From contig NZ_KB913037.1 of NCBI RefSeq assembly GCF_000384295.1, positions 10,784,493 through 10,848,492 on the forward strand: 64,000 nt of DNA, written 5' to 3'. Source of the DNA: Amycolatopsis balhimycina FH 1894 (GTDB lineage Bacteria; Actinomycetota; Actinomycetes; Mycobacteriales; Pseudonocardiaceae). Each line of letters opens with the position of its first letter. Within the stretch, counting starts at the first letter, position 1. A program made the translations under genes and the position numbers. This document shows, one piece after another, positions 6,484 to 32,066 of this stretch. The notes under the pieces were generated by a model. That model was not told where the DNA came from, did not search any database, and saw only the letters and a list, made by a program, of their open reading frames with translations.

Positions 6484-6574
6484 TTGAACGAATCAGTGCA
6501 AGAATCTGACAGCAGCACGAGAAATCGCAGCATCGATCGGGAAGATCCGCTCAGTCCTCGACGAAGAGGTGCCC

Positions 6575-11815: not shown

Positions 11816-11966
11816 GGCCGGTCCTCTTCTCGTCGGCTGAGGAAACCCACTTTCGTCCTGAGGGGACGCCACCCACATGGGGTGAACACGTCGTCCTGGC
11901 CGCCCGGCGCCTTACTCGCGCCCCGGCGTCCCGGATATGTTGGTGCCGACCGGGAGGAGGTGGCCG

Positions 11967-14380: not shown

Positions 14381-16144
14381 TCACGTCCCCTTCGCCAGGT
14401 CGAACGCCAGGCCGCTCGAGCGTTCGCCGCGGCCGACGTCGCGGCGGACGCTCAGCCAGAGGGCCACCCGGCCGGTCTTCGTGCGGGTCCGGTTGTACGA
14501 AACCGTCAAGCGGGTGCCCGACCTCGGGACCTCCTCCTCGTTGACGAAGTACGACTGGCCGCGGTCGAAACCTTCGCGCAGCAACGCCGTTCTCGGGCGG
14601 ATCGAGCTCGCGTCCACCTCGCTCGGCATCGCCGCGCGCTGCAGCTGGACCGCCCGGCTGTCGCCCGGCACGTGGACCGGGATGAACGGGATCCAGTTCT
14701 CCGGCACCGAGCTCATCACCTCGTACGCGATCGGCGCGCGCGGGGCGTCCGGTTGCTGTGGCTGGTGCCGCCGGCGGCGGAACGCGAGCGATTCGGCCGC
14801 CATCTCGTCGCCCGCCCGGCCTTCGCCGGTCGTCGTGCGGACGGTCTGCTCGATGCCCCACACCAGGTTGGCGCTCTCGTCGCGGACCAGGGCCACGTCC
14901 TCGAGCGCCGGTCCCGTCGCCACCTTCGGCGTGCCGGGCGGCAGCAGCATCCCGGGGCCGCCGCCGAGGGTGTACATCGACCAGTGCTCGGCGGCGCCGG
15001 CCGGGGTGATCCAGCGCCGCTCGCCGAACACGTCGGTCACGCACAGGCCCCCGACGGTCGCGAGCGTGCCGGCCGGCAGGTCGCACGGCAGCTGGTACCA
15101 GTCGTTGCTGAACACCAGTGCGAACTCGAGGAAGATCAGCCGGGCCAGGTCGGTGCTGTCCGGGGTGACCGCGGCGAAGTTCGTCTTGCCGTCCTCGACC
15201 GCCCACCAGCGGGGCAGCGGCATGCCGGAGTAGCGCACCGGCGAGGGGAACACCGTCCGGTTGAGCGTGACCGGCGCCGGAGTGGCGCCCAGCGACCCCG
15301 GCACCGTGGAGAACGCGTGCCAGTCCAGCTCCCCGCCGGGGTACTCCGGCGCGGACAGCACCCGGTCGCCGGCGGCGATCGAGAAGCGGTGCTCCAGCCG
15401 CCGGGGGTCCCACGCAGAGTCGCCCGATGGCCGGTCCGGCGTGATCCCGCCGGGCTGGTCGATGAGGTCGTCGAACCAGCCGGTCAGCCGGGGGCCCAGC
15501 GCGTCCAGCTTGGTTCGTTGCTGGCGCGAAAGGCTCCGGATGCCGTCGGAGGCGTGCCCGCCCCCTTTGAGGTGCTGGTAGAGCAGGTAGCCGTCGAGGC
15601 GGCGGCCGGCCACCGCCTGCGTCGCCGCCCAGACCTCGGGGTGGGCGAGCTGTGCGGCGTCGTCCGGGCCGGGCAGCGCGATCGGGTACAACGCGACGAA
15701 CTGCTCGGCGGCGTCCCCCAGCCCCGAGGCCCGGGCGAGCAGCCGCAGCCATCGGCGGCCCAGCGCCAGGCGCAGGTCGAACGAGATCGGCTCGGTGCCG
15801 AACGCGAACGGCAGCGGCCGCCGCTCGGCGACCGTCTCGAGTGGACGGTCCGGTGGCAGCGGGCCCGGCGTGCCCTTCGGTTCGACGTCGGAGCGGAACC
15901 GGCCCGGCGCGCTGGCCGTGACCGAGTAGGTGGCGGTCACCGGCGAACCGGCGTCGCTGCCGCGGAACTCGCCGAGCTGCCACTGGCGGGCCAGCAGCCA
16001 CAGCGGGTCACGCACTTCGGCCCGCAGCGCCCTGGTGAAGTCGGTCGTGCGCGGCCGGCCCTCCAGGCGGTTCCAGACCCCGACCGCCGGGTTTTCGCGG
16101 CGGGTCAGCGCGCCGGCGAGGTCGGTGATGCGGGGCTCACTCAT
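14381..16144 (-). CDS. Conserved protein of unknown function, last gene of the seven-gene unit
   Basis: 587 residues, no signal peptide or membrane helix. The N-terminal block AEVRDPLWLLARQWQLGEF followed by DAGSPV is a phrase I recall in uncharacterised proteins of several bacteria, but no function is known to me. Trp-rich segments (RRWLRLL, NDWYQLP, EHWSMYTLGG) and IPFIPVHVPGDSRAVQLQRA suggest a compact beta-rich fold; no catalytic motif is evident. It starts 8 bp inside the preceding 1737-residue gene (16137-16144), so the two are translationally coupled, implying a need for matched amounts. Confidence 0.75.
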   Translation of the reverse strand: MSEPRITDLAGALTRRENPAVGVWNRLEGRPRTTDFTRALRAEVRDPLWLLARQWQLGEFRGSDAGSPVTATYSVTASAPGRFRSDVEPKGTPGPLPPDRPLETVAERRPLPFAFGTEPISFDLRLALGRRWLRLLARASGLGDAAEQFVALYPIALPGPDDAAQLAHPEVWAATQAVAGRRLDGYLLYQHLKGGGHASDGIRSLSRQQRTKLDALGPRLTGWFDDLIDQPGGITPDRPSGDSAWDPRRLEHRFSIAAGDRVLSAPEYPGGELDWHAFSTVPGSLGATPAPVTLNRTVFPSPVRYSGMPLPRWWAVEDGKTNFAAVTPDSTDLARLIFLEFALVFSNDWYQLPCDLPAGTLATVGGLCVTDVFGERRWITPAGAAEHWSMYTLGGGPGMLLPPGTPKVATGPALEDVALVRDESANLVWGIEQTVRTTTGEGRAGDEMAAESLAFRRRRHQPQQPDAPRAPIAYEVMSSVPENWIPFIPVHVPGDSRAVQLQRAAMPSEVDASSIRPRTALLREGFDRGQSYFVNEEEVPRSGTRLTVSYNRTRTKTGRVALWLSVRRDVGRGERSSGLAFDLAKGT

Positions 16145-19100
16145 GGTCTGCCTTCCAGCGGGTGTTGGCGATCGCCAGGTCGGTGCTGATCGTGATCGGC
16201 TGCCGGGTGGCCGACAGCACGGTGGCCGGCAGGAGCTGCGCGTACCCGGTGTCGTCCAGGTGCGCCGGTTCGACGAGCCGCGTCTTGGCGAGGTCGAAGG
16301 TTTCGTTGACGGCGGCGACGAGGTCGTCGGCGGCCCAGGTCCCGGTCTTCACCGGCGGGGTCACCAGCAGCATCGCCTGCGGCGGCTCGGAGTCCGGGCT
16401 GTCCGCGTGGACGGCGATGCTCGTGGTCTCCCGGTCGGCGGGGATCACCTCGGTCCACTCGTCGAACAGCAGGCCGCACTCGCTGTCGGCGTTGCGCGAC
16501 GGCTCGGTCGCGTAGTGCGCCGTGAACAGCAACCGGTCTTCGGTGAGGTCGGCGCCGGCCGCGAACTCCATGCCGAGCCAGTGGTCGCCGGACCGCCGCG
16601 GCAGCTGGACCGGTCGCAGCCGCGTGTCGTCGTCGTTCTCGGCGTCGTGGCCGAGCAGGCCGCCGCTGCCGCGCAGCGCGTCGCTGAGCAGGACGACGCG
16701 TTCCCAGAGCCGGGGCATGTCGCGGACCCGGGCGATGCCGTGCAGCCAGTCGTCCACCGGGAAGTCCCGGTTGACCGGCGCCTGAGTCAGGTGCCGCACC
16801 AGGTCTTCGCTGTCATCGAGGGCGTCGTGCAGGTCCCCGGCCAGCTGGCCGGGGAGCGCGTACTCGGGCACCACGAAGACGTCGGTGCCGAGCATCGCCT
16901 GCAGAGCCTCGATGGCGGCCTTGGTGCGGTCCGACGAGGTTACGGCCTGGTCGAAGCCGGTGAGCGCGGTGGTCGCCGCCGCCAGCCGGCCGATGACTTC
17001 GGTCTGTAGCGCGCGGGCCCGGGTCAGCAGTTCGCGGCCGAACTCCACCACCTGGTCCTGCGTGGCGGTCAGGTCGAGGCCGGTGGGGTCGAAGGCGGTC
17101 AGCGGCAGCAGGCGGCCGACGTCGTGCAGCAGGTCGCTGAGCGTCGAGGTGCCGGTGCCGGCGATGTCCTGGAGGTCGTGGAGCCGGTCGGCGAAGTCGT
17201 CCCGCTTGTGGCGGACCGCCGAGCGGAACTCGTTCGGGGTCTTCGGGTCGACGGCCGGCGTCGTGACGACCAGCCGTTCCACCTGCCGCAGCAACCGGAT
17301 GCGCTCGGGGTCCGGAGTGGACTTCGGCAGCGCGTCGTACGCGGTGAGCAGGGTGTTGGCGGCGGCGAGCGCGCCGGCCATCCGCTCGGCGGTTGTCGCC
17401 ACCGCGGCCAGCACGGCCGAGAAGACCCCGCGCCGCCACGCGATCAGCTCGCCCCAGCCGCTGCGGACGACGCCGAAGCCGGCCGCGGTGGTGACGAGCT
17501 CGGCGTACCGCGTCAGCAGCGTGTCGATGCGGTCGAGCACGTCGGCGCGCTTCGGCGGCGCGGGCGACGGCGGGTACAGCTTCGCCACGTCGACGATGTA
17601 GCCGCCCACGTCGCCGGCGAGATCGTGCAGGGAGTCCCGCACCGCTTCCGGCCGCTTTTTCGTGACCGTGACGGCGTCGTCGAGACTCCGGTCCACCGCG
17701 GCGGAACCGGCCGCGGGGACGAGGTCGGTGGGCCGCAGTGGCCGTCCGGTCGTCAGCAGCGTCCGCAGTGCGGTGATCAGCGGGGACAGCTCGAAGAACG
17801 TGATCTTGCCGTCGATCCGCTCGGTGTAGCGGATGGTCAGCTCGGTGTCCGGGCGCGGGTGGTCGTGCTCGACGACGACCCCGATGATCCGGTCGTCGAG
17901 CTCGGCCATGGCCGGGTCGCCGGTCGGCCGCACGGCCCAGAGCAGGTCGATCGGTGACAAGCCCAGCTCGTCCTGGGTGACGTCGTGGTGCTGCGCGTGC
18001 CCGTCCTCGTCGGTCCAGGTGACCCGGGCCGCGACGGACCTCGGCGGTGGCAGCAGGCTGGGCAGCCAGTCGTCGACCGCGGGCTCGGCCTTCGCGCGGG
18101 GCGAGTCGCCGCCGCCCGGGTTGAGCCCGGTCCGCAGCCGGAGGCCGAACCGGTGGGTGAGCGTCGTGCCGCTGCGCGGCGTCTCGATCACCGTCGGCTC
18201 GGGCGGCAGGCCGTCCTTGGCGTAGGCGTCGAGCGTCGCCGAGGCCCGCTCGACGTTGCCGGCGAGCGCCTGGTGGGCGGACTCGGCGACGGCGAGGTCG
18301 GCGACGGCGTCGTTGGCGTCGAGCAGCAGGGCCGCCTCGTCGCTGATCGCCTTCTTCTGACCGGGGTCCGCCTCGGGCAGCCCGGCGAGGCCGAACGGGT
18401 AGGTCCGCGACACCCCGGCACCGTTGAGGTGCCGGACCAGCGCGAGCCCGTCGACGACGTTCCCGGCCTCGACCTGCGTGATCTTGCCCGGCTCGACCGC
18501 GGTCTCGGTGATCTTCCCCGCGCGCAGCGGGAACTTCAGCCGCAGCCCGGCGATGAACCGGTCGACCTCGGCCTCGGCGTGGCGGTCGTGCAGCCCGCGC
18601 TCGAACCGGTAGCCGAGCAGCGCGCCCAGCGACTGGCCCTGCCGCATCCCGGCGAGGATGCCGAGGGCGACCCGGACACGTCCGGAGCCGAGGTTCACCG
18701 CGAACGTGCCGGGGTTTCCGGGGGTGCGGTTGGCGGCGTAGCCGGCGCGCAGCACGGCCGCGGTCCGGGCGTGCGCCGGCGACGGCGTGTGCACGAAGCC
18801 TTCGTTCTTTTCGTCGTGCAGCAACGGTTTCCCGCCGGCGAACACCGTGGCGAGCGGGCCGGTGAGGGTGACCGGGGTGAGCGGGTCGGTGCTCGGGCGG
18901 ACGTCTTCCAGCCAGCCGTACGCGCCGAGGTGCAGCCCCGGTTTCGCGGTGCCGGTGCCGCCGGGCCCGAACCGCAGCTCGGCCAGCCGTTCGGTGGCCA
19001 GCCCCAGCCGCCAGGCGTCGAGCCGGTAGGCGGCCAGGTCGAGGTGTTCGGCGAGCACCCGCTCCAGCTTGGCCGTCGGCAGGCCGGCCAGCAGCCCGAG

Positions 19101-21350
19101 CGCGGTGACCTGCTCGGCCAGCGCGGCGGTCGGCCCCGGCTGGTGCAGGACACCCGGGATGAAGTCGACGAGCAGCTGAGACGGGTTGCCGGTGACGGCG
19201 GGTGCGGGGGAGTACAGCAGCCGGAACCGGCTCTCGCTGAGCGCCTGCTCGCCGGCGGCCGGGATCCGGACGTGCACGAACGGCGAGTCCGCTGGGGACA
19301 GTCCGGGCACGCCGGCCGCGCTCGCGAGGGCCCGGGCCGCGTCGTCCCAGCCGAGCAGGACCGCGTGCCGAAGCAGCAGGTACAGCAACGCCGCCGGCGG
19401 CGTGTCGTCCGTGAAGCCGAGCTCCAGCCGGATCGCATGGAGGTCGGTGCCGGCCAGGTCGGCCAGCAGGCGCACGTAGTTCTTGTGGTCGGGGGTGTAG
19501 TCCCGGATCGGGTCGGTCTCCGACAGCGGGCGGTCGTCGACGAGCGGGGCCAGGATCGGCTGCTGGAAGTCGGTGAACAACCGGCGCAGCAGGTCCGGGT
19601 CCCGGCCCGGGCCGGTGTCGGCGCCGAACCGCGCGAGCAGCGCCCGCACCGGTCCCGGCAGGCCCAGCCCGTCGAGCGCCGGCAGCACGGTCGAGCCCAG
19701 CCCGCCGAGGTTCTCCCGGTTGAAGAGGTCCTCGACGCTTTGGGCGTACCGCTGGTGGTACTCGGCCGAGGTCGGGTGCAGCGCCAGGAGGTCCAGCAGC
19801 CGCTGGTGCGGGTCGGGCGCGCCGGGGTCCAGGCGCGGCACCCGGCCGACGGCCGCCGTCCAGTCCGCGCCCACCGCGGTCAGCACCTTGGTGAGCGCGC
19901 GGCGGTGGGTGGCCGAGGCCGGGTAGGCGAGCTTGGAGAACACCGTCGTCGGCAGGATGCCGTAAGGCTGCCGCCCGATCTTGACGGCCGGCAGCGGGCC
20001 GCGGCCGGAGACGTACTTCAGGAAGAAGTCGCGGGTGGCGGCGACCGCGGCCGGGCCGAGCAGCGGGTTCAGCGCGGTCTGCAGGAAGTAACCCCAGGTC
20101 GCCGGCCACAGCGCGGTGTTGGCGGCGCGCGCGTCGCGCTGGTCGGTGCCGTCCGCGTTCGGCATCCCGGTGAGCACTCCCGCGTCGAGGCCGAGCAGGT
20201 CGGCGAACACCCGGCCGTCGCTCCGGCCGGTCCAGTCCGCCGCCGCGGCCGCGGCCGCTCCGGTGGTGCTGCGCAGCGCCGCGGCCGCCTCCGCTTCCTC
20301 GTCCTGCCCGGCGGCCAGCACGTCGGTGTTGTTCGTCGGGGTGCCCTGCGGCAGCAGGCTGAAGCCGTCCGGGCTGCGCAGCTGGTGGGTGATGAGCTCG
20401 GCGAGGTCGGTCGCGGTCTTCGCCGGGGTGGACTGCTCGCGCAGCCCGAACGCGACGAGCCGGTCGAGCCCGCCGCGGATCTCGTCGGTCAGCGGGATCC
20501 GCACGCCCATCCCGAGCGCGACGGCGCGGTCGAAGTCGGTCAGCCAGCGCAGCTCGTCCGGGACGTGCAGGACGCCGGTCTGCTCGTTCACGCTGATCTG
20601 GTCGACGGCATGGGGGTCCGGGCTGACCGGCAGCGTCGCCGGCACCGCCGCGCCGGTGACCGACACGACCTGACGGCTCCCGAGGTACCCACGCACCTGG
20701 AAGCGGTCCGGCAACAGCCGGGCCTGCGCCGGCTGCGTCCACGAGTCCGCCGCGGTGCTGTCCGCGGCGGGCGCGGGGAGCACGAGGAACGCGACCGCGA
20801 CGTCGTTGCCCGGGCTCACCGGCGCACCGTCCACTCCGGACGGACGGCGGGCGCGGATCGCGTTCGCCCGCGTGTCGTTGTTGCCGACCGCGGTGCGCAG
20901 CGCGGCCTCGGCCTGCCGCAGCAGCAGCCGGTCGCCGTGGGCGCGCCACACCGCGGTCCAGTACGCGACGGTCGGCGCCCGGTCGTTCGCGGCCACCGCG
21001 GCCGTGCTCCGGACGACGAGCACGACGGTGGTGCCGGGCACGATGGCCGGTTCGTCGGCGGGGTTCGCGGGGACCCGGGTGGTCAGCAGCCAGGCGGCGC
21101 GCCCCGCGGCCACGCGCCCGGCTAGCTCCTGCCACGCGGCCGCCAGGGGAACCGGCCGCTTCGCGGCGGCCCACCGGGCGGTCCAGTAGGCGTCGACCGC
21201 GCCGATCTCGGCCACCGTCGGCTTCGTTTCGAACTTGTCCACCGACCACTCGTCCGGGAACACCCGGACCAGCAGCTCGGCCGGCGTGAACCGGGTTTCG
21301 AGCCGCACCGGGCCGAGCAGCACCGGGAAGTCGTCACTCAAGGCGGTCAT
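16137..21350 (-). CDS. Giant conserved protein (1737 aa), unknown function
   Basis: The largest product of the unit and apparently cytosolic. The N-terminal roughly 350 residues (starting TALSDDFPVLLGPVRLETRF) look beta-rich; the middle holds Gly/Pro loops such as SGRGPLPAVKIGRQPYGILP; residues about 1230-1560 are long Leu/Ala/Arg helices (DVLDRIDTLLTRYAELV, REPLEAVKD-like runs) that may form coiled coils. The C terminus has GLLFDEWTEVIP and a long VNETFDLAKTRLVEP helix. I recognise none of this as an enzyme. ATG 21350 overlaps the preceding stop as ATGA. Length and helix content suggest a scaffold or shell component, but that is inference. Confidence 0.75.
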   Translation of the reverse strand: MTALSDDFPVLLGPVRLETRFTPAELLVRVFPDEWSVDKFETKPTVAEIGAVDAYWTARWAAAKRPVPLAAAWQELAGRVAAGRAAWLLTTRVPANPADEPAIVPGTTVVLVVRSTAAVAANDRAPTVAYWTAVWRAHGDRLLLRQAEAALRTAVGNNDTRANAIRARRPSGVDGAPVSPGNDVAVAFLVLPAPAADSTAADSWTQPAQARLLPDRFQVRGYLGSRQVVSVTGAAVPATLPVSPDPHAVDQISVNEQTGVLHVPDELRWLTDFDRAVALGMGVRIPLTDEIRGGLDRLVAFGLREQSTPAKTATDLAELITHQLRSPDGFSLLPQGTPTNNTDVLAAGQDEEAEAAAALRSTTGAAAAAAADWTGRSDGRVFADLLGLDAGVLTGMPNADGTDQRDARAANTALWPATWGYFLQTALNPLLGPAAVAATRDFFLKYVSGRGPLPAVKIGRQPYGILPTTVFSKLAYPASATHRRALTKVLTAVGADWTAAVGRVPRLDPGAPDPHQRLLDLLALHPTSAEYHQRYAQSVEDLFNRENLGGLGSTVLPALDGLGLPGPVRALLARFGADTGPGRDPDLLRRLFTDFQQPILAPLVDDRPLSETDPIRDYTPDHKNYVRLLADLAGTDLHAIRLELGFTDDTPPAALLYLLLRHAVLLGWDDAARALASAAGVPGLSPADSPFVHVRIPAAGEQALSESRFRLLYSPAPAVTGNPSQLLVDFIPGVLHQPGPTAALAEQVTALGLLAGLPTAKLERVLAEHLDLAAYRLDAWRLGLATERLAELRFGPGGTGTAKPGLHLGAYGWLEDVRPSTDPLTPVTLTGPLATVFAGGKPLLHDEKNEGFVHTPSPAHARTAAVLRAGYAANRTPGNPGTFAVNLGSGRVRVALGILAGMRQGQSLGALLGYRFERGLHDRHAEAEVDRFIAGLRLKFPLRAGKITETAVEPGKITQVEAGNVVDGLALVRHLNGAGVSRTYPFGLAGLPEADPGQKKAISDEAALLLDANDAVADLAVAESAHQALAGNVERASATLDAYAKDGLPPEPTVIETPRSGTTLTHRFGLRLRTGLNPGGGDSPRAKAEPAVDDWLPSLLPPPRSVAARVTWTDEDGHAQHHDVTQDELGLSPIDLLWAVRPTGDPAMAELDDRIIGVVVEHDHPRPDTELTIRYTERIDGKITFFELSPLITALRTLLTTGRPLRPTDLVPAAGSAAVDRSLDDAVTVTKKRPEAVRDSLHDLAGDVGGYIVDVAKLYPPSPAPPKRADVLDRIDTLLTRYAELVTTAAGFGVVRSGWGELIAWRRGVFSAVLAAVATTAERMAGALAAANTLLTAYDALPKSTPDPERIRLLRQVERLVVTTPAVDPKTPNEFRSAVRHKRDDFADRLHDLQDIAGTGTSTLSDLLHDVGRLLPLTAFDPTGLDLTATQDQVVEFGRELLTRARALQTEVIGRLAAATTALTGFDQAVTSSDRTKAAIEALQAMLGTDVFVVPEYALPGQLAGDLHDALDDSEDLVRHLTQAPVNRDFPVDDWLHGIARVRDMPRLWERVVLLSDALRGSGGLLGHDAENDDDTRLRPVQLPRRSGDHWLGMEFAAGADLTEDRLLFTAHYATEPSRNADSECGLLFDEWTEVIPADRETTSIAVHADSPDSEPPQAMLLVTPPVKTGTWAADDLVAAVNETFDLAKTRLVEPAHLDDTGYAQLLPATVLSATRQPITISTDLAIANTRWKADHE

Positions 21351-24300
21351 CGCGGCAACATCTCCTGTGCGTGCACGGCCACCATCACGGGGACCTGGAA
21401 AAGGATGTAGGCGAGGTCGGCCGAACCGAGGCCCGAGAACCAGAGCGGCAGGTTCTCGTCTTCGGCGCGCTGGTCCTTCTTCTCGCGGTCGTCGTCCGAG
21501 TGGTCGAAGTCGCCGAGGGCGACCTGGACGGCCGGGTCCAGCTCGAGGAACCCGGTCCGGCCCGGATCGACGTCGTCCCAGGTGAGGTCGTTCCACACCT
21601 CGACGTGGGTGGGCGGTCCGTCGTCGACGCCGAAGCGCGGGTCGCCGGGGCGTTCCTTCAGCACGAAGAACCAGCCGGGGTCGGCCCCCGGCGTGCCGAG
21701 GGCTTCGTCGGCGTCCAGGTCGAAGCCGAGCAGGTAGATGTCCGGCTCGACCTTCGCCTCGTACCGGGGCAGCCGGACCTGCTCCGCCGACGGCAGGCCG
21801 TCGGTCGGCAGGTCGGCCAGCTCCCGGGGCTGCGTCGGGTCGTTCCCGGGGAACTGCGCGCGCTGCGCGTAGATCGCGGCCGTGGGGTACTTCTTGAGCA
21901 GCTCGCCGCGGACGACCAGGACCAGGTCGTCGCGTTGCGGGCCACCGGGACGCGGGTCGTCCGGCTGCCGGTTTTCGTTGTCCCCCAGCCGGGTCGCGGG
22001 CGGCCACTCGTGGATCGGCGGGATGTCGTAGCCCCGCTCCCGCCGCAGCCCGGCGGTCTCGTTCGGCACGGGCAGCGTCGTGACCGGGTCCCAGAACTGC
22101 CGGAACGGCGTCCCGCGCTGGTCGGTCGGGTACTCCCGCCACAGCAGTTCGCGGGCCATCTCGTGGTTGAGGCCGACGAGGAAGGACTCGATGAACTCGC
22201 GGTTGTTCGCCAGCAGCGTGATCGAGTTCGGCGGCAGCAGGCTCAGGTTCGGGACGAGGCTGTCGACCGAGACGTCCAGCAGCGTCCGGTAGGTCGGCAC
22301 GTCGAACACGGGGTAGGCCATGGCTTCGATGAACTGGGCGGCGAACGGCCGCAGCCGCTCGGGCAGGCTGACCGACCCTTCGAGCAGGGCGCGGGGCACG
22401 GTCTCGTCGGCGTTCAGCCCGGTGAGCACCGAGGTGGTGGTCTCGACGAGGTCCAGCGGCGGTGCGGGTTTCACCTTGCCGACCGCCACCCCCGCGTCGA
22501 AGCCCTGGTGGAGCTCGCGCAGCGCGGCCTTGAACCGCTGCGCCTCGGCGCTGTCGGAGGTACCGGTGTGCGGTGCGGCCGGGTCGCCGATGGCGCGCAG
22601 CACGAAATCCGGGCTGAGCGGCAGGGAACCCACTGGATCCGCATCGGGTGGCCGGGTCGGGTGCAGGGTGGCCGTCAGGTCCCGGGGCGTGACGAGCGCA
22701 CCCGGGGTGACCTTGACCGGCGCCGCGACGACGGGGTCGAGTTCAGCGTCCATTCTGGACAGAAGCGCGGCGGCGGACTGGCCGGGGAAGGGCAGGGTTC
22801 GCATCAACCGCGAGCCGGGCCGGGTGATGCGGCGCATCGCGGGCGAGACGGGCGCGGTCGCGACCCGGCTGCTCGCCACCCGGAACCCGACGGCGACCTG
22901 GCTCGAGGGGTCGGCGACGAGGCCGGCGGCGCCCGCGGCGGCGAAGGTGCCGCTGCCACCTGCGGCAGCGAAGCTGCTGTTGCTCGCCGCGGTCGTGACC
23001 CGCGAGTGCGCCGGTGCGGTGAGCGTCAGCGACCGGCCCGGCGCCGAGGCCGGGGCGGCGGCCAGTGCGGCGGCCCCGCTGCCCGTCGGCGGGTCGATGT
23101 GCTTGGCCTGCAACACGTTCCCGACCTCGCGGGCGAGCTGGGCAGCCCGGATCCGGCCGTTCGCGACCAGGACGTCGCCGACCTGGGCCCAGGCCGCGGC
23201 CATCAGCTCCTCGTCGTGGGCGCGGACGACTTCGGTGCCGAGGTTCGCCGCGATCCGGAAGCGCGGGTCGAGGTTGAGCCGGTGCAGCCAGCCGCGCAGG
23301 ACCTCCGGGGACACCGGGGTGCCGTTCTCGTCGTTCAGCAGCCGGGTGGTCAGCGCGTGCCAGCGCCCGTACAGCGGCGGCGTGATGATCGGGTCCGGGC
23401 CGGCGGCCGCCGCCAGGCTCGCGGCGTGCGCCGCCGCGGGCTCGTGGCGCTGGTAGTCGTCGGCCAGGTTGAGCAGGCCGGCCATGGCCTGCTCGAACGG
23501 GTGCGGGTAGGGCGGGGCCGCCCCGGTGTCGATGAAGTGGTCCCAGTTGTCCGCCGGGTCGATCGGGTCGCCGGCGCGTTCGGGCACCTTCAGCGCACCC
23601 CGCAGCGGCAGCACGCCGCCCTGGTCCGTGATGGGCGGCAGGTTCAGGTCGAACGGCCCGTGGACGTCGAGGTCCCGCTTGCCGATCCGCGGATCCGGGG
23701 CCTGCGGGCGGAGCAGCCGGACCAGGAACTCGAAGTCGCCCGCGGTGCCCGTGGCGAAGGCCCAGCGGTGGTAGTACGGCAGGACGCCCTCGGCCGGGCG
23801 GTTCGCGTAGTGCGGGCCCCAGCTCGAATACAGCGCGTTCGGCGCCACCGCCGGGTCCAGCCCGAGCCCCGCGAGCCGGCCGGACTCGAACGTCGGCACG
23901 AGGAACGCCTCGTACGCGGTGCCCGGTTCCAGGTGGCGCGGGCAGATCAGCCGGGAGCAGGCGTTGTCGGCGTTGGTGCGCACCACTTCGGCGAGGGCGG
24001 CCAGCGCGGCGGTCGTGCCGTCGGTGGCGACCGGGTCGGCCAGGGAGCCGTTGACGTGCACGTGCGCCCAGGCGCCGAGCTGGTCCGCCGGCGGCAGTGT
24101 GCCGGCCGGGTCCGCGACGGTGATCGCCGGCAGCGGGCCACCGGCCTTCGGGACCTCGGTGAACTCGCTGCCGGTGGCGAGGACGACGAGCGCCAGCCAC
24201 GGGGTGAGCCGGGCGGTGTGGCCGTCCGCGGCCGCCGGGCTGTAGCGCCAGAGGAAGTCCTCCTCGGAGAACTCGATGTGCGCCAGGTAGTTCGGTTCGA

Positions 24301-24553: not shown

Positions 24554-25755
24554 GCGGCACCGCCGGCGAACAGCTCCGCGGTCGGGGTCAGTTCGGTGAC
24601 GACCGGGTCCGCGGCGGCCAGCCCGGACCGGACCACGCCGCCGGCGATCGCCGCCCCGCCCTGGTCGAGTGGTGCGGCGGCGAACGACCACCGTCCGGTC
24701 CCGAGCCCGGCGGCGACCGTCCAGTCGTCGTGGCCGGCGTCGTAGACGAACGCGCTGCGGTAGCCGGCCTCGTCGCGGTCGCTCGAGGCTCCGCCGACGA
24801 CCAGCACGCGGCCCGGGCCGACCGGGACGGCGCGGTGGAACGCTCGCCCGGCGGGCATCGGCTTCTTCTCCGTCCACTTCCCGCTGTGCAGCTCGAACAC
24901 CTCGGTGGCGCGCTGGCTGAACGGGTCGTACGGCGCGGTGCCCGGCGAGCCCGGCGCGGTCCCGCCGGTGACGAGCACGGTGGTGCCCGACAGCCGGGTC
25001 GCCTGATGGTGCCGGCGGGCGCGCAGCAGCGCGCCGGTCGGGGCCCACAGCTTCTTGCCCGAGTCGTACAGCTCGCAGAACGCGAGCGCGGGGTCGTCGG
25101 GGACGCCGACCGGCACGACGCCGCCGACGACCAGGATCATGCCTTCGTCGAGCGCGACGGCGGTGTGGCCGGTGCGGGCGTCGGTCATCGCCGGTGCTTC
25201 GTGCCACTTTCCGTCGCTCGGGGTGTAGCGCTCCGCCGAACGCAGGGCGGTGACGCTCCCGCCGGGGCGGGCCGCGCTGCCGCCGGCGACGAGCACCGAG
25301 CCGTCGTCCAGCAGCACGGCGCTGTGCCCCCAGCGGGGGGTGATCATCGTGCCGGTGGTCGGCGTCCACTGGTTGCGGTTGTCCGGGCCGTCCGGGTGGT
25401 AGATCTCGGCGGAACCGAGTCCCGGCCCGGTGGGGGACGAGCCGCCGAGACCGCCGGCGGCGAGCACGGTGCCGTCCTGCAGGCGGGTGAGCGTGTGCAG
25501 CTGCCGGGGCGAGCGCATGATTCCGGTCGGGATCCAGGCGGCGGTCATGTCGAGGGTGTCGAGCGTCGCGGCGGTGCCGATCGCGGCGCCGGCGGCGTCC
25601 GCGCCGCCCGCCACCAGGACGATCCCGTGGTCGAGCGGGACCGCGCCGTCGTGCTGGCCGTACCAGGCGGCGGGGGCGGGCAGGTCGTGGGCGCCGGTCC
25701 AGGTGCCGAGGGGCGCGGTGAGAGTGGCCATCGTGGTTTCCTTCGTAGACGTCAT
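24550..25755 (-). CDS. Seven-repeat kelch beta-propeller protein
   Basis: 401 residues made almost entirely of kelch-type repeats. Seven hydrophobic-GG strands can be counted: GIVLVAGG, GTVLAAGG, GSVLVAGG, GMILVVGG, TTVLVTGG, GRVLVVGG and GGAAIAGG, which would close a seven-bladed propeller. Kelch propellers bind proteins or sugars or, in galactose-oxidase relatives, carry copper; the copper-site Cys/Tyr set is not apparent. ATG 25755 overlaps the previous stop as ATGA; an internal ATG 25731 has a better AAGGAAA site. It is closely similar to the C terminus of the upstream gene product, so one probably arose by duplication of the other. Confidence 0.85.
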   Translation of the reverse strand: MTSTKETTMATLTAPLGTWTGAHDLPAPAAWYGQHDGAVPLDHGIVLVAGGADAAGAAIGTAATLDTLDMTAAWIPTGIMRSPRQLHTLTRLQDGTVLAAGGLGGSSPTGPGLGSAEIYHPDGPDNRNQWTPTTGTMITPRWGHSAVLLDDGSVLVAGGSAARPGGSVTALRSAERYTPSDGKWHEAPAMTDARTGHTAVALDEGMILVVGGVVPVGVPDDPALAFCELYDSGKKLWAPTGALLRARRHHQATRLSGTTVLVTGGTAPGSPGTAPYDPFSQRATEVFELHSGKWTEKKPMPAGRAFHRAVPVGPGRVLVVGGASSDRDEAGYRSAFVYDAGHDDWTVAAGLGTGRWSFAAAPLDQGGAAIAGGVVRSGLAAADPVVTELTPTAELFAGGAA

Positions 25756-28700
25756 GGGATGAGCACCTCGCCGGTGTCGGCGGGGCCGGGACCGGAGACA
25801 CCGGCGGCGACGAGCACCCGGTTGTCGGGCAGCTCGGTGACGGCGTGGGCGGAGCGGCCTTGGAGCAAGCCCGAAACCGTCGTCCAGGTGTCGTGGTCCG
25901 GGTCGTAGACCAGGGCGGAGCGGTAGCCGGCGGTCCGTTCCGGTGTGCCGGTGCCGCCGGTCACCAGGACGAACCCGGAGCTCAGCAGCAGTGCCCGGTG
26001 CCCGGTGCGCCCGCCACCCGGCATCGGTGCCGCCGCGCTCCACGTGCCGTCCTTCGGGTTGTACCGCTCGGCCGTGGCGAGGCTGTGCGGATCGAGGGTG
26101 CCGCCGGGCGCGACGACCGGGTCGCCGCCGGTGACCAGGACCGTGCCGTCCGGCAGCAGCGTCGCCTGGTGACCGGTGCGGGCCTGGGCGAGGCTGCCGG
26201 TGACGACCCAGTCCACCTTCGCCCGGTCGAACACCTCGCAGTAGGCGAGCTGCCCGCTCCGGCCGTTCCCGCCCGGGAGGGCGCCGCCGGTGACCAGGAC
26301 GTTGCCGTTCAGCAGCAGGACGGCCTGGTGGTCGGTGCGCGCGTCGGTCATCGGCGGCAGCGGCGCCCAGGCGCCGGTGCCGGGGTCGAACGCCTCGCAT
26401 GAGGTGAGGGCGCCGTCGTCCTGGCCGGCCCGCACGCCGCTGCCGCCGGCGACCAGCACCCGGCCGCCGCCCAGCTTCGTCGCCGAATGGCCGTGCCGGG
26501 CGACCCCCATGGCCGCCACCGGCGTCCACGCGCTCGCGGCCTGGTTGGCCAGCTCGGCCGTCGCGAGCACGGCGTGGGTGCCCCGGCCGCCGGCGACCAG
26601 CACCCGGCCGTCGTCGAGCCGGGTGGTGGTGTGCCGGCGGCGGGCGGTGCCCAGTGCCGGGCCGGTGGCCCAGGAGTCGGCGGTCGGGTCGAACAGGGTG
26701 GTCGTGGCGACGGCCTCGCCGTCCTGGCCGGTCCCGCCGGCGAGCAGCACGTGGCCGGTGGCCAGCGGCACTGCGTCCACAGTGGACACCGGAGCCGGCA
26801 GGACGCCCGCGGCGGACCAGGTGCCCGGCACACCCGGGGCGCCCACCGTCTCGGCCGCGGGGATGACGTGCAGCAGGCCGTCCAGGGTCCGGTCCGCGGT
26901 GACGAAGTCGGCCAGCGCGTCTTCGGCGGTCGCCCGGCTGCGGAACGTCGTCACGGTGGCCCGGCCCGGCCGCGCGATCGAGCCCGGCGGGAACGCCTGC
27001 CGGTTGCTCTTGAGGTAGGCGACGACGAACCGCTGTTCGGTGACGCGGACCGTGTCCTGCGCGGCGAACGGCTGTTTCTGCGCGGCCTGGCGGGCCGACA
27101 GCGCGGCGCGGCTGGTGCTGCTGCCGCGGGTGAGTTCGTCGAACACGGGTCCGCTGACGCTGTGGAACCGCTTCTGCGGGACGGCAAGCCTGGCCGCACG
27201 CGGGGTGGCGGCCCTGTCGATCAGGTGCAGTTCGTAGCGGGCGCTGCGCCGGACGACCCGGGCGGTCGCGAGGGCGGTGTCGGCGGTCAGCTCCAGGCCG
27301 GCGTCCTGCGTTTCGTAGGACGGCCGGGAGAGGGCGGCGGCGTCGGACAGGGTCTGGAACTGTCCCATCGCGAACCGGTCGCCGGTGAACGACACCCGCT
27401 TCAGCCCGGTGTTGTCCACCGGGTTGACGGTGAACCGCTTGCCGTCACCGGCTTTCCGGCCGCCGACGCGGTCGAGCCGGACGCCAAGGGGCAATGCGCG
27501 TTGTCGGATGAAGAGCGTGCCGAGCGGGTGCAAGACGATCTCGCCGGTTTCGGGCAGCTGCCGGAGGTTGACCAGCGTGCGGTTGTCTCCGGACGGCAGC
27601 CGGGTGTCCCAGCCTTCGGTCTTGCCGATTTCGTTGGCCAGCAAGGGAAGGACGGCCACGGGTGGGAGGGTGGTGTCGCGGTCTTCGCCCCAGGTGATGT
27701 CGAAGTTGGCTGAGATGGAGAAGAACAGGAAGCCGATTGATCCGCGGCCGTGCGCTCGCCAGGGTGCCGGTCCTTCGAGCTGGAAGTCGAGGTCGATGCC
27801 GAAGGCGCCGACGCCGAAGGCTTTCAGCGTCACGTGGGCGTTGATGTGGATGGCGAATCGGAAGGGGGATAGCTGGAAGAGGGCGTCGAAGCCGAGGTGG
27901 CCTTCGACGCGGAACGCGCTGAAGCCGAGGCGTAGTTCGGCTTTGGCGCCGAATTGGACGGTGTTGCTGGTGACGGCGAAGTAGCCGGAGACGCGGATGA
28001 GCTGGTTGTTGCGGTTGAGGATGTCGACTGACAGCCGGTCGGGGATCGGGAAGGGGAGGGGTGGTGGCCGGTAGGCGGGGTGGAATCCGCCGACGGTGAG
28101 GACGAGGTCGGGGTTGTCGCCCCAGGCGACGAGGACGCCCATGCCGCCGTCGATGGTCATGGTGAGGATGCGCGAGTCGAAGAGCTTCGCGAAGAACCAC
28201 AGGCGGGATTTGTCGAGTTCGAGGGCGCCGACGAACTGGGCCTGGACCACCAGCAGGGGGTCGTCCTCAGTGGGCAGTGCGGCCTTGAGGACGCCGAGCA
28301 CGGCGATGTTCCCCGGGATCTCGATGATCACCCCCAGGGAGATGCTCACGAGAGTCGGCGTGCCCCAGCCGATCTTGGCCATCGGCCCGATGAGGAATGT
28401 GCCTTGTTCCGGGGGGAAGAACCGCGCCAGGTCGGAGAGAATCCGGGGCGCGTTGGCGACCACGTCCTTCGGGAACGCGACGGACTCGATCGCGCCGGTC
28501 CGGACGCCTTCGACCAGCGCCGCCAGGTTCATCCCGCGGTTCAGCCCGATGAGGCCGCCGACCGCCAGCAGCCGGAAGCCGTACCCCAGCTGGATGCCGC
28601 TGCCGAACTCGGCGGTGAGGACCATCAGCAGGGAGAAGCCCGGCGAGCCGTCCGGCTGGCGCGTCGTGATCAGCCCGATCGCCTTCAGCGCGAGGAAGTC

Positions 28701-30308
28701 CGCGAACTCCAGTTCCAGCGAGCCGGAGTACTCCCCGCGGTCCGGGTCGAACGACAGGAATCCTCCGCCGGACACGACGCCGCCGCTCACGGCCAGTGCG
28801 ACGCCGGTCGGTGCTCGAAACCCGATCGACTGGTCAACCGGGCCGAGGTTGCCGTCCTGGCCAGGCCGGTTGGCGAACAGCGCGGCGAGGCCCAGCCGGC
28901 TCACGGCCGCGGTGAACGGACCGAGCGTGACCTGGATGTCCGCCGACACCTCGGCGGCCACCGCGGTGTCCCGCAGCAGCAGGGTGAGGTGGACGCCGGT
29001 GACGGTCACCGGACCGAGCTGTGCGGAGACCGCGATGGTGGTCTCCAACGCGCCGCTACCACGGAAGGTGAAGCCGTGTTCCCGTGACCAGGTCAGGCCG
29101 ACGTCGAATCCGGCCCGAAGCCCGTCCGCGGGCAGAATGCTGGTGATGAAGCCGTCCGCGTCCGTGGTGTCCACGACGAGCTCGGCGCCGGTGACATCGG
29201 CGTGGAAGCCCACGTCGCCGTTGACGGTTCCGGCGCCGGCGTCGCCGACGAACTCCGTGGTCAGTCCGGCGACGATCCGGTTCGCCGTCAGGCGGATCCC
29301 TTCACCTGCTTCGAAGATGACAAACGGACTGGCAGGATCGGGACTTTCGCCGACGATGTCGAGCGACACGACGCCGGCGACACCCGCGCCGCCCGCGAGA
29401 TCGAGCGATGTCGGCGGGCGCAGGTGCAGCACCTGCCCTTCGGTCAGGGTTCCGCCGACATGCAGCACGACCCGCAGATCGTCGCCGAGCTGCCCGAGGA
29501 TGAGATCGACCGGTCCCGTCACGCCGGCGGCCAGTCCCAGGTCCAGTCCTGGCGGCACCGCACCGGTGGCGACCTGCACGAACAGCCCGAACAGGTCGAG
29601 GTCGGCCGGACCTTCCTCGTCGGCCTCGTGGGCGGTGGCAGTGGGGACCAGGACGTCGAACACCTCTCGGGCATTGGCCAGCAGCAGCTTGCCGTCGAAC
29701 GTCGCCTCGCCCCAGCCGTAGACCTCCCGAAACACCGCCAGCGGGTCGCCGGCCAGCCGGCTGATCCGGTCCAGGTGCAGAACCCGCCGCAGTACCGGCG
29801 GAGCGTCGTCCGGTTGGAAGCCGACCGGCTTCACCTCGACGACCGTCAGCAGGGACAGCACCCTGCGGAGGAACGGATGCGCCAGGTCGAGGTAACCGAC
29901 CACCGCGTCGCCCATCAGGCGCTCGACGAGTGTCGTGGCGAACCGGGCGAGGTCGTCGGCGCCCGGCAGGCCGGCCGTTGCCCGTTGAAAGTCGGTCGCC
30001 AAGGCGTGCAGCGAACTGCCGAAGCGGCGAATGCCGTCGAGAAGGCGCAGGGCCGCGTCCGCCCGTGCGACAGCGTCATCCGCTGCCGTCACCTCGTCGA
30101 CGCCGGCCGCGATGGCGGCGGCCGCGTTCGAGGCGGCGGCGAGTGTCCGGGTGAATGCCGCGTCCGCGGACAGGTCAGGAGGCTTGTCCACGCCGAGTTC
30201 GGTGAGCAGCAGCGCGAAGTTGGCCGGCGTGAGCGCGCCTTCCATGGCTGCCAGGGCCACACTCAGTTCGGCGGCAAGGGCATCGAGGGTGGTGGGTTGG
30301 TCAGCCAT
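25752..30308 (-). CDS. DUF6603-like giant protein with C-terminal kelch propeller (1518 aa)
   Basis: Residues about 1-120 are Ala-rich helices. About 200-1000 is a long repetitive beta-region with VGFHADVTGAELVVDT-type strands and, near 800-900, GHLGFDALFQLSPFRFAIHI, then FQLEGPAPWRAHGRGSIGF and TWGEDRDTTLPP; I associate this with DUF6603, a domain of unknown function. Residues about 1170-1518 carry seven kelch strands (GHVLLAGG, GRVLVAGG twice, GNVLVTGG, GTVLVTGG, GFVLVTGG, NRVLVAAG). No signal peptide was seen. It starts 18 bp after the 450-residue gene. The stretch 27.5-28.2 kb uses more A/T-ending codons than the rest. Confidence 0.8.
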   Translation of the reverse strand: MADQPTTLDALAAELSVALAAMEGALTPANFALLLTELGVDKPPDLSADAAFTRTLAAASNAAAAIAAGVDEVTAADDAVARADAALRLLDGIRRFGSSLHALATDFQRATAGLPGADDLARFATTLVERLMGDAVVGYLDLAHPFLRRVLSLLTVVEVKPVGFQPDDAPPVLRRVLHLDRISRLAGDPLAVFREVYGWGEATFDGKLLLANAREVFDVLVPTATAHEADEEGPADLDLFGLFVQVATGAVPPGLDLGLAAGVTGPVDLILGQLGDDLRVVLHVGGTLTEGQVLHLRPPTSLDLAGGAGVAGVVSLDIVGESPDPASPFVIFEAGEGIRLTANRIVAGLTTEFVGDAGAGTVNGDVGFHADVTGAELVVDTTDADGFITSILPADGLRAGFDVGLTWSREHGFTFRGSGALETTIAVSAQLGPVTVTGVHLTLLLRDTAVAAEVSADIQVTLGPFTAAVSRLGLAALFANRPGQDGNLGPVDQSIGFRAPTGVALAVSGGVVSGGGFLSFDPDRGEYSGSLELEFADFLALKAIGLITTRQPDGSPGFSLLMVLTAEFGSGIQLGYGFRLLAVGGLIGLNRGMNLAALVEGVRTGAIESVAFPKDVVANAPRILSDLARFFPPEQGTFLIGPMAKIGWGTPTLVSISLGVIIEIPGNIAVLGVLKAALPTEDDPLLVVQAQFVGALELDKSRLWFFAKLFDSRILTMTIDGGMGVLVAWGDNPDLVLTVGGFHPAYRPPPLPFPIPDRLSVDILNRNNQLIRVSGYFAVTSNTVQFGAKAELRLGFSAFRVEGHLGFDALFQLSPFRFAIHINAHVTLKAFGVGAFGIDLDFQLEGPAPWRAHGRGSIGFLFFSISANFDITWGEDRDTTLPPVAVLPLLANEIGKTEGWDTRLPSGDNRTLVNLRQLPETGEIVLHPLGTLFIRQRALPLGVRLDRVGGRKAGDGKRFTVNPVDNTGLKRVSFTGDRFAMGQFQTLSDAAALSRPSYETQDAGLELTADTALATARVVRRSARYELHLIDRAATPRAARLAVPQKRFHSVSGPVFDELTRGSSTSRAALSARQAAQKQPFAAQDTVRVTEQRFVVAYLKSNRQAFPPGSIARPGRATVTTFRSRATAEDALADFVTADRTLDGLLHVIPAAETVGAPGVPGTWSAAGVLPAPVSTVDAVPLATGHVLLAGGTGQDGEAVATTTLFDPTADSWATGPALGTARRRHTTTRLDDGRVLVAGGRGTHAVLATAELANQAASAWTPVAAMGVARHGHSATKLGGGRVLVAGGSGVRAGQDDGALTSCEAFDPGTGAWAPLPPMTDARTDHQAVLLLNGNVLVTGGALPGGNGRSGQLAYCEVFDRAKVDWVVTGSLAQARTGHQATLLPDGTVLVTGGDPVVAPGGTLDPHSLATAERYNPKDGTWSAAAPMPGGGRTGHRALLLSSGFVLVTGGTGTPERTAGYRSALVYDPDHDTWTTVSGLLQGRSAHAVTELPDNRVLVAAGVSGPGPADTGEVLIP

Positions 30309-30325
30309 GGTCGCGCCTTCCGCCG

Positions 30326-31678
30326 TTACGGGAGCCCATTGGCTGCCCGATCCAGAATTGTTTTTACGGCGTTTCCCTGGTTGTCGAGAAACGCGTAGTG
30401 TCGCTGCACGGCGGCATCCGGATCGTTGATGGAGGCCCCGAAGAACTTGCCGAAGAACTTTGCTTCATAGAGTCGCGCCGGGCCGATGAACTGCTGTCCG
30501 GTGCTGTCGATGTCGGCACTGGTTCCCGGCGCGCCGCCGACCACCGTGACGGTCTTCAGTGCCTGCGCGGCAGCGAAGAAGTAGGTCGGGAGCGTCTCCT
30601 TCGCCACGAACTGGACGATTTCGGAGAGTGACCTGGTGATGACTCCGGAAAAATTTCCCTTGGCGTCCCGCTCGCCACGGAAGAATGGATGGTAAGCGTG
30701 ATTGGGGAAATCTTCGTCGTAGCGAATCTCGAACAGTCGCGGTGGTGGAAAATGGGTGAATCCGTGCCCGGCGTGGGGATCTGACTGCAGCGAGCGTTCC
30801 AGGCTGATCTGGTTGGCCATGTCGATGGGAATGTTCGTGTTGCCAGGGGGCGGTTTCTTCGTGTCCCGTAGCAGCTTCGCGATCGTGCCGCCCTTTCTCA
30901 ACTGCCTGGTGAAGGCTTCCTCGACGACCTGGCGGACGGTGCTCATGATGAGGCAACGCTGCTTGAGGGTGCCACCGGTGTCCGGGATCGTCAGCACGAT
31001 GTCCTGGATGTTGCAGCCCCAGATGCGAAAGCTGCCGGACGCCGCGAACCCGTTCTTGAACTCGTCCAGTGCGGCAGCATTCGCCGCGCCGTCCTCGCCC
31101 ATGTCCGGCTGGAAGTCGATCGCGGCCCTGCCGTCGGTGTCGTCCGGATCGCGCCGGGTGCCCGCGCCTGCCGGAGTGTTGAACAGGACCGGACCATCGA
31201 CGAAGGCGTGAGAGAAGACGCTCAGTTCGAGCACGGAACCGCGTGGTGCTTTCCGGACCGAATGGTAAACGTTGACAATCGACACCGCGTGGTCTGATCC
31301 AGCCGCTTTGGTGTCGGCAATCGGCTGCCATTCCACGAAGGACTTGGGATCGTGCGCGGGATCCAGGGTGCCGTGTTTCGTCACGAAGTTCGCGTCCAAC
31401 GTGGTCCAGTTCCGCTGAACATGGCGGGCTCTCGGGTCGTCGACCACTGATTTCCGCGTCTTGAAATTGTGCTCGTAGATCTGCACTGCGGCCGCATGGC
31501 TGTCGAAGTGAATGAACCGCAGCACGGTGTCCGCTTTCACGACTGCCGTGGGCCTGTTCCGATGCCGCCAGAACTGGGCGACCAGTTCGCCGACCCGCAA
31601 CCATGCGCATCTGGCGAAACCGTCGTCTTTTTTTTCTGGGAGGCCGCTGGCCAGGATTATGAAGAGCGGATCAGTCAT
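30326..31678 (-). CDS. Conserved protein of unknown function (450 aa)
   Basis: ATG 31678 overlaps the 86-residue gene's stop as ATGA. The N-terminal half has a mixed beta pattern (LFIILASGLPEKK, TVLRFIHFDSHAAAVQIYEHNF), and SVLELSVFSHAFVDGPVLFN looks like a conserved core. A His/Phe-rich block (GHGFTHFPPPRLFEIRYDED) follows near residue 310. I know no family for it. The gene is noticeably less GC-rich at third positions than the operon's later genes, which may mean separate origin. No export signal was seen. Confidence 0.65.
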   Translation of the reverse strand: MTDPLFIILASGLPEKKDDGFARCAWLRVGELVAQFWRHRNRPTAVVKADTVLRFIHFDSHAAAVQIYEHNFKTRKSVVDDPRARHVQRNWTTLDANFVTKHGTLDPAHDPKSFVEWQPIADTKAAGSDHAVSIVNVYHSVRKAPRGSVLELSVFSHAFVDGPVLFNTPAGAGTRRDPDDTDGRAAIDFQPDMGEDGAANAAALDEFKNGFAASGSFRIWGCNIQDIVLTIPDTGGTLKQRCLIMSTVRQVVEEAFTRQLRKGGTIAKLLRDTKKPPPGNTNIPIDMANQISLERSLQSDPHAGHGFTHFPPPRLFEIRYDEDFPNHAYHPFFRGERDAKGNFSGVITRSLSEIVQFVAKETLPTYFFAAAQALKTVTVVGGAPGTSADIDSTGQQFIGPARLYEAKFFGKFFGASINDPDAAVQRHYAFLDNQGNAVKTILDRAANGLP

Positions 31679-31935
31679 CGTCGTGCGCTCCTGTCAAGAT
31701 GAGCGATTGATCGGGAAACGTGTGACACCGGCGGCTTGCCGTGGTCGTCCCCGGCCCTCAGCCACGGCGTGAACGTCACCGTGGCGCCCGCCGGCAAGGG
31801 CTGGTCCGGCGTGAGCGTCTCGCCGGTCAGGTCGTCGACGCGGAGCAGCCTGACGAGCTCCGGCGACGAGTGGCCGGTAATCAGGTGCAGGTCGGTGGCG
31901 GCCGTGTCCGCCCACTTCAGCCGGACGATGGTCAT
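31675..31935 (-). CDS. Small first gene of the seven-gene unit (86 aa)
   Basis: ATG 31935 begins TIVRLKWADTAATDLHLITG; the middle ELVRLLRVDDL then PDQPLPAGATVTFTPW loosely recalls the strand-helix-helix-strand order of LysM/tail-X modules, but too weakly to call. The C terminus is basic. Its stop overlaps the next start (ATGA). It is the promoter-proximal gene, 48 bp downstream of a triple heptamer repeat, and so marks where the unit's transcription begins. Confidence 0.6.
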   Translation of the reverse strand: MTIVRLKWADTAATDLHLITGHSSPELVRLLRVDDLTGETLTPDQPLPAGATVTFTPWLRAGDDHGKPPVSHVSRSIAHLDRSARR

Positions 31936-31982
31936 ACCGTGTCCCCCCGGTCGCGCTTGCGGCTTCCACCGTCGCAGCGACG

Positions 31983-32011
31983 GTCGACAATTCGTCGACA
32001 ACCCGTCGACA
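31983..32011. promoter_or_regulatory. Triple SARP-type heptamer repeat
   Basis: GTCGACA occurs at 31983, 31994 and 32005, exactly 11 bp apart, in the 131-bp space between the seven-gene unit and the divergent SARP gene. SARP/AfsR proteins are known to bind heptameric direct repeats spaced by one helical turn. A weaker GTCGCAG lies at 31971. Measured from the leftward start (31935), the repeats are at 48, 59 and 70 bp. Confidence 0.75.
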
Positions 32012-32066
32012 CCTTGCCGAACGTGCTTCGGCGTATCTGGCGGCGCGGCCGGTTCACCTGTAGGGC

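Follow-up and report, generated by a model that had tools for sequence, protein, structure and literature searches.

Two described kinds of system come closest to the locus analysed here. For type VI secretion, the relevant passages of PMC8546570 describe a hot spot inside vgrG through which the variable end of that gene is able to move along with the effector genes. The polymorphic toxins treated in the corresponding sections of PMC3482391 include caspase-like and other peptidases among their modules. We favour, at somewhat less than even confidence, an interpretation of the present locus as a modular enzyme-carrier complex, by which an enzyme would be carried to a target outside the producing cell. 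About evenly balanced, in our judgement, is the broader proposition that (i) a universal base, formed by a protein with a DUF6603 domain and a protein termed P3 here, is combined with a cassette of an enzyme gene and an adaptor half-gene that is exchanged through homologous recombination within the DUF6603 gene, and (ii) this arrangement constitutes a new class of enzyme-delivery or targeting machine in bacteria and haloarchaea.

The window, that is, the whole 64,000-nucleotide stretch of DNA that was analysed, is situated about 10 kb short of the end of a 10.86-Mb genome in a single contig, and the closest homologues of its P1 and P3 proteins carry the name Amycolatopsis. Seven minus-strand ORFs occupy positions 14381–31935, as an initial annotation had described, and are named here from P1, the last gene (587 aa), to P7, the first gene (86 aa), with P2 to P6 encoding 1737, 1068, 401, 1518 and 450 aa. 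The coupled junctions are also present as described: four overlaps of 4 bp, one of 8 bp (16137–16144) and one 17-bp gap (30309–30325). P1 (14381–16144), P2 (16137–21350) and P3 (21347–24553) represent core families that lack a Pfam model; together with P6 and P7 they gave no Pfam match at E ≤ 1, and an NCBIfam scan of the seven proteins added only matches below the cut-offs. The earlier statement that the function of the set is undescribed agrees with these scans, in that P1, P2 and P3 are not assigned a function by any model of Pfam, NCBIfam, PADLOC or PHROGs. Searches of PDB sequences with the P3, P6, P1 and P5 profiles returned nothing meaningful; the matches to P5 (best E 0.0008) are mostly coiled-coil, designed-helix and apolipoprotein entries aligned with its helical N-terminus. 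With PHROGs, searched with P1–P3 and P5–P7, the kelch part of P5 was matched, one of the matches being named a virion structural protein, and two matches of unnamed function at E 0.03 fell in P2 and P6. Two homologues carry names that the Pfam scan of the window proteins does not support: P0060, a homologue of P3, is called 'DUF2169 domain-containing' and P0233, a homologue of P1, 'Phage tail protein'.

A CoA-transferase family III gene (13170–14345) lies 35 bp behind P1, and an HpcH/HpaI aldolase gene (11937–12722) is found on the other strand; both probably belong to a separate unit. A large alpha-1,3-glucanase-like protein with F5/8C and CARDB domains is encoded at 6484–10284. Beyond the other end of the unit, a SARP-type regulator with BTAD, NB-ARC and TPR domains (32067–34907) is divergent from P7. 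Within the flanks covered, eight SARP-like ORFs were found at only seven loci, so this regulator is not a constant partner of the core and was rejected as a part of the system.

The core recurs in the same genome and in many others. A second P5–P4–P3–P2–P1 set, in the same order and 47–62% identical, is located at about 707–724 kb of the genome; P6 and P7 have no match at this copy, where a subtilase gene precedes the DUF6603 gene. At E ≤ 0.001, 3628 homologues of P3 were recovered among 7995 scored candidates and 2257 of P1 among 7996. A P3 profile search of genome contigs gave 399 relatives, 80 of which were retained. Relatives of P3 occur in actinobacteria, Chloroflexi, cyanobacteria, Bacteroidota, Proteobacteria, Nannocystis, Neobacillus, Pyrinomonadaceae and WPS-2, and 13 plasmid records with relatives add haloarchaea, Gemmatirosa and Rhizobium; two of the nine plasmid regions viewed are near recombinase genes. 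ORFs at these loci were called by our own scripts, with approximate starts. The order DUF6603–P3–P2–P1 is complete in 74 of 89 loci and a different order is seen in none; the other 15 are without one or more core members, and many of these are on short contigs. P3 is present in 90 of 91 locus stretches (by choice, since loci were picked by P3), P2 in 86 and P1 in 78. Gaps of 20 bp or less separate P3 from P2 in 67 of 84 loci and P2 from P1 in 65 of 77. One P1 homologue (G419:C183:87697-89352) contains a single internal TGA and is perhaps a decaying copy. P4 (24550–25755), a 401-aa kelch propeller, is accessory, a kelch gene being added in part of the actinobacterial loci.

These results bear on the earlier proposal of a seven-gene unit, to be checked by looking for the same gene order across genomes. 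The conserved core of DUF6603 protein, P3, P2 and P1 upholds that proposal in part, whereas P7 is a remnant, P6 is an exchangeable slot gene and neither is constant. The suggestion of a multiprotein assembly fits the conserved multi-gene unit and its second copy in the same genome; a physical complex is what we infer from them.

The distribution of DUF6603 is wider than that of the full core. The domain was found in 15 of 80 genus genomes. Across 394 class genomes it is present in 37, P1 in 15 and both in 13, so DUF6603 also occurs without P1. In 10 of the genomes with both, a single contig carries P1 ~8–13 kb downstream from DUF6603; the other three are draft assemblies with the two on different contigs. 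When 14 loci from genomes with DUF6603 and no P1 were searched leniently for P3, one ORF was matched in 13 (E 2e-8 to 0.3) and none in the remaining locus; the P3-like ORF is directly behind DUF6603 in all six of these loci for which coordinates were compared. Distant relatives of P2 and P1 were not found at E ≤ 1 in other DUF6603 loci. The pattern tentatively suggests that DUF6603 and P3 form the basic pair. Profile comparison detected no domain common to P1, P2, P3 and DUF6603.

P5 (25752–30308) can be divided into three parts: an exchangeable segment of residues ~1–500, which we propose to be an adaptor, the DUF6603 domain, and a C-terminal kelch propeller at ~1165–1518. The DUF6603-like region noted initially is a genuine Pfam match (PF20248, E 7e-122), scoring 407.9 bits against a curated cut-off of 27. 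Pfam places this domain at residues 428–989; in the present system it is the constant half of a chimeric gene. The seven kelch repeats attributed to each of P4 and P5 were likewise recovered, since seven motifs can be counted by eye and both proteins have Pfam kelch matches. In the predicted structure, the N-terminal part of P5 is helical to about residue 220 and then turns to strands, and the rest is predicted to consist of long antiparallel strands in an amphipathic beta-meander, with an inside–outside alternation of 3.25 over 26 strands versus 1.45 when shuffled. The P5 model resembles LptD, a chain of the type 9 translocon, ApoB and porins in local arrangement only. The DUF6603 model has a pTM of 0.51 and its porin matches have rmsd values mostly of 11–13 Å, so the overall shape is unsure and a closed porin barrel is not claimed.

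The gene directly before DUF6603 varies between loci. A slot ORF was obtained at 73 of 90 loci, the other 17 being dropped for lack of a slot ORF or of DUF6603 by the rule used. With groups set by profiles named after Pfam-scanned representatives, 59 of the 73 slot proteins were sorted as M64-like (19), trypsin-like (17), subtilase (two groups of 10 and 4), PLD (5), galactose-oxidase-like (2) and PhoD-like (2), and the unclassified 14 were labelled 'other'. Pfam, run on 63 of the 73, identified M64 in 18, S8 in 14, PLD in five, Trypsin_2 in four, and tyrosinase and galactose-oxidase-like domains in two each; because Trypsin_2 reaches E ≤ 0.001 in only 4 of 63, for most of the 17 the label 'trypsin-like' depends on the profile and the conserved H-D-S residues. 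Hardly any variation is seen in the catalytic residues of the four groups examined (trypsin-like H-D-S, M64 HExxH, D-H-S of the first S8 group and PLD HxKxxxxD). The trypsin-like and first subtilase groups have unrelated catalytic parts and a common C-terminal domain of ~130 aa (hhalign 99.5%). With 50 of ~120–240 candidates per genome scored, this domain gave at least seven matches in five of the 80 genus genomes, all lying ~3 kb or less upstream of a DUF6603 match.

Several loci carry further genes of related kinds. Three Bacteroidota loci have ORFs of 138–140 aa that consist almost wholly of the ~130-aa domain (L082:4638-5054, L086:4582-4998 and L087:3668-4090); they lie just upstream of trypsin-like slot genes and could encode an inhibitor or an adaptor. 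A second slot-type gene is present in L116, L117, L120, L123 and L124, all from the same genus, accompanied in L123 and L124 by an extra DUF6603 gene, and L118 and L119 have short pieces only. These pieces are trypsin-like (125 aa in L118, 204 aa in L119) and may be scars of a swap like the one described below for P7. At three divergent DUF6603 loci, a metallo-beta-lactamase-fold gene occupies the slot position (L135:4722-6536, L137:5099-6643 and L138:5456-6712), with Pfam matches that are weak in two and above the cut-off in L138.

The make-up of the slot might be taken to indicate a processing system, in which the core proteins are matured by the slot enzyme or serve as building blocks of a surface or storage polymer that the enzyme modifies. 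Proteases are the majority of the classified slot enzymes, oxidases could act as cross-linkers, and P5 is large and beta-rich, all of which would suit such a role. It would, however, demand one common substrate for PLD, PhoD-like and oxidase-like enzymes and for proteases of several clans, and export signals are few, so that we consider processing improbable. The enzyme-carrier interpretation remains the one we prefer, and it draws on the way in which the slot gene and its neighbour are exchanged.

Slot type was compared with trees of different parts of the locus; the trees are quick ones without bootstraps, and the 14 'other' proteins were left out of the counts. On 59 rows, trees of P5 residues 1–225 and 226–427 require seven slot-type changes each, the minimum for eight states, but the tree of the DUF6603 domain (residues 428–990) requires 20, against 27–38 for shuffled labels. 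The P1 tree (57 rows) and the P3 tree (60 rows) each require 24, against 29–39 for shuffles. The same disparity is found for the N-terminus, DUF6603 and P1 when the comparison is restricted to 56 common rows (7, 23 and 23 changes), to 49 rows less than 90% identical (8, one above the minimum, 24 and 23) or to 39 rows without loci that have a second slot gene, as listed by hand (7, 21 and 20). Pairwise identities tell the same story. Residues 1–427 are only 24–28% identical in different-slot pairs whose DUF6603 domains are 80–89% identical (n = 8), compared with 55–93% in same-slot pairs (n = 9), and across all 1345 different-slot pairs the N-terminal identity is at most 34%, the divergent N-terminus being aligned less securely than the core. 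Identity jumps near residues 480–520 in 9 of 11 pairs examined; in L048–L035 and L034–L048 it climbs gradually from ~320. Same-slot pairs between phyla are 24–35% identical over residues 1–225 (nine pairs), hardly more than for different slots. The pairing is thus at its strongest between closer relatives, and its deep part depends on the trees. Judged from these alignments and trees, the exchange unit is the enzyme gene plus ~430–500 N-terminal residues of the DUF6603 protein, and the remainder of the protein is kept with the core. The fixed stoichiometry that had been deduced from translational coupling overlooks this main feature, namely, that the first gene is swapped along with the N-terminal part of the next.

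Recombination near codon 500 could also simply drag along the DNA upstream of it, with no docking between enzyme and N-terminus. The cassette does end in a well conserved part of the DUF6603 coding sequence, the easiest place for homologous recombination. Mere linkage should nevertheless also produce breaks that separate the slot gene from the N-terminal part, and the trees need none on 59 rows and a single extra change (eight versus seven) in one subset, even though breaks inside the DUF6603 gene are frequent. Nor would linkage lead one to expect that the N-termini of 1345 different-slot pairs never exceed the identity ceiling given above. We therefore give this explanation little credence. 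Strict pairing of N-terminus and enzyme instead suggests that the N-terminal part is a docking adaptor, as the enzyme-carrier interpretation proposes.

The most recent exchange has left traces in the window. The first 66 aa of P7 (31675–31935) are 88% and 79% identical to the start of M64-like HExxH proteins of 852 and 850 aa, which sit at DUF6603 loci in two further genomes of the genus. The DNA of this region is 84.6% identical over 272 and 312 bp, the match spanning 31737–31739 to 32010–32047 and including sequence upstream of the start codon. On this similarity, P7 is what remains of the 5′ end (~66 codons) of an M64-like metallopeptidase gene that has been displaced from the slot. Over 10.9 kb the window core shares 90.5% identity with the copy in one of the two relatives, and local identity falls from 95–98% to ~65% at position 28740, which corresponds to codon ~523 of P5. 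Between this breakpoint and the one at ~31737 there are only P6 and the N-terminal part of P5, and no immunity gene. The cassette so delimited (28740–31737; P6 and P5 residues 1–~523) coincides with a dip in GC content, which is 0.64–0.70 in the cassette (0.64 in 30001–32000) versus 0.73–0.75 in the core. Since P6 and the P5 N-terminus are bounded by the two breakpoints, a segment comprising a caspase-fold enzyme gene and the start of the DUF6603 gene has replaced an M64-type gene. In both relatives with M64-like proteins the locus is a tandem array containing two DUF6603 genes plus additional slot genes, and the swap may thus have cost the window more than one gene.

P6 (30326–31678), the present occupant of the slot, is a predicted clan CD (caspase/legumain-fold) cysteine peptidase. 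His157 and Cys222 are invariant in all 19 aligned sequences; in the predicted structure, which matches caspase/legumain-type cysteine peptidases in fold, H157 follows a strand at 149–155 and C222 a strand at 211–220, as in caspases. Its likeness to legumain, PIG-K, clostripain and caspases thus consists of the fold and of a His/Cys pair placed after neighbouring core strands. A Foldseek search with P6 yielded nothing significant, only a mixture of weak matches to von Willebrand A, Ku, COPII, legumain and clostripain. The initial annotation had found no catalytic motif in the unit and called its products giant non-enzymatic proteins; the invariant and caspase-like His157/Cys222 pair contradicts the former and the predicted peptidase makes the latter wrong for P6. 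The idea that P6 belongs constantly to the unit was rejected, since its profile and that of P7 matched no ORF in the locus ORF set. P6 matches were found in three of 394 class genomes, including its own, the other two being partial and weak, and the P6 profile matched one of 80 genus genomes, its own. Relatives of DUF4347, considered as a bridge to P6, were absent from 100 phylum genomes and from the controls, so that their absence says nothing for or against the link.

How might such an assembly work? The N-terminal part of P5 would likely act as an adaptor specific to its enzyme, docking it to the core. With less assurance, the DUF6603 strands may fold into a barrel-like or groove-like shape that touches or spans a membrane or covers a hydrophobic surface, target recognition may fall to P1–P3 and the kelch or WD40 propellers, and the assembly may take the exchangeable warhead enzyme outside the producer. 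Export would then proceed without a signal peptide, by lysis or another route; the role that we would favour is delivery against other cells. Part of the evidence runs against a carrier. No secretion, lysis or immunity gene common to the loci was seen: in Pfam no family occurs in more than three of 73 flanking proteins (among the best 25 of 106 families), and these proteins were chosen by hand, mostly from 414 ORFs, as same-strand neighbours and with tandem slot genes included. In addition, galactose-oxidase-like and tyrosinase slots (2 of 63 each) are untypical warheads. Several roles of the unit had been offered initially (surface, storage, predation or defence); an enzyme carrier is what the data favour.

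Signal peptides look absent from the core and slot proteins, as judged by hydropathy. In agreement with what had been reported for the seven window proteins, none has a typical hydrophobic peak, the highest 19-aa mean being 1.98 (P5). Across loci, an N-terminal hydrophobic peak was detected in 2 of 73 slot proteins and 1 of 341 core ORFs, versus 15 of 267 flanking ORFs; a 19-aa mean hydropathy of 2.0 or more occurs anywhere in 24 of 85 DUF6603 ORFs, 15 of 91 P3 ORFs and 37 of 267 flanking ORFs. The rarity of signal peptides would also be expected of an intracellular immune complex, in which an invader or damage is perceived by the core and propellers and the enzyme is then set free or switched on as a suicide effector. 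Both proteases and PLD could plausibly serve in this way, and the patchy occurrence of DUF6603 in genus and class genomes, the plasmid records and the two plasmid regions near recombinase genes are in line with such a role. On the other hand, PADLOC assigned no family to P1, P2, P3, P5, P6 or P7, which led us to reject a known defence system, neither Pfam nor NCBIfam detects an NTPase, nucleic-acid-binding or signalling domain among the seven, and M64-like, galactose-oxidase-like and tyrosinase slots fit poorly. We rate an immune complex as unlikely, yet as the most credible competitor of the enzyme carrier. Four slot enzymes from other loci were also run through PADLOC; one matched a generic subtilase model and one DrmC-like PLD models.

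A phage origin was rejected as well. In a tblastn search of 50,697 phage records with P3, the one match was an unverified faecal scaffold, and a scan of viral_contigs confirmed none of 50 candidate stretches. The scaffold (L010; MT835531), a 40-kb entry named 'Bacteriophage sp.', has DUF6603, P2 and P1 matches and is perhaps bacterial DNA.

A word search of titles and the beginnings of abstracts in the PMC literature found no description of an enzyme-carrier system of this kind, and no paper naming DUF6603 or PF20248 was found in PMC, a search that most subscription papers and preprints lie outside. If the interpretation is correct, one conserved scaffold is re-armed with proteases, lipid- or phosphate-cleaving enzymes and oxidases. 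Thousands of 'hypothetical' proteins, the scored P3 homologues alone among them, would then become one system with a testable logic, and DUF6603 would gain a structural and functional hypothesis. The division into constant scaffold, proposed adaptor and exchangeable enzyme offers a biochemical handle in the form of natural matched and mismatched adaptor–enzyme pairs, and it may point to a new route by which bacterial and archaeal enzymes are placed on targets without a signal peptide.

How, then, does the locus compare with the described systems? Polymorphic toxins provide the looser likeness, that of exchangeable enzymatic modules on a constant carrier. Compared with the account in the sections of PMC3482391 cited above, the module here is a whole separate gene plus a half-gene rather than a C-terminal domain; no immunity partner was seen, and Pfam and NCBIfam reveal no known trafficking domain in the seven proteins. 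Type VI secretion differs in its components, as the seven proteins have no Pfam or NCBIfam match to VgrG, PAAR, Hcp, sheath or Tap adaptor, and Pfam finds no sheath, tube, spike or baseplate of a contractile injection apparatus among them. It differs also in that the window cassette has no immunity gene and that the present system extends to haloarchaea and Gram-positives. The orientation is reversed, the exchanged end being upstream here and downstream in vgrG as presented in those passages of PMC8546570. The parallel drawn from the same passages is nonetheless a close one: the carrier part is constant, and the rest of the gene and the effector are swapped as a unit, so that cognate partners are kept together. 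Without detectable kinship, the exchange logic described here bears a likeness to that of VgrG–effector cassettes.
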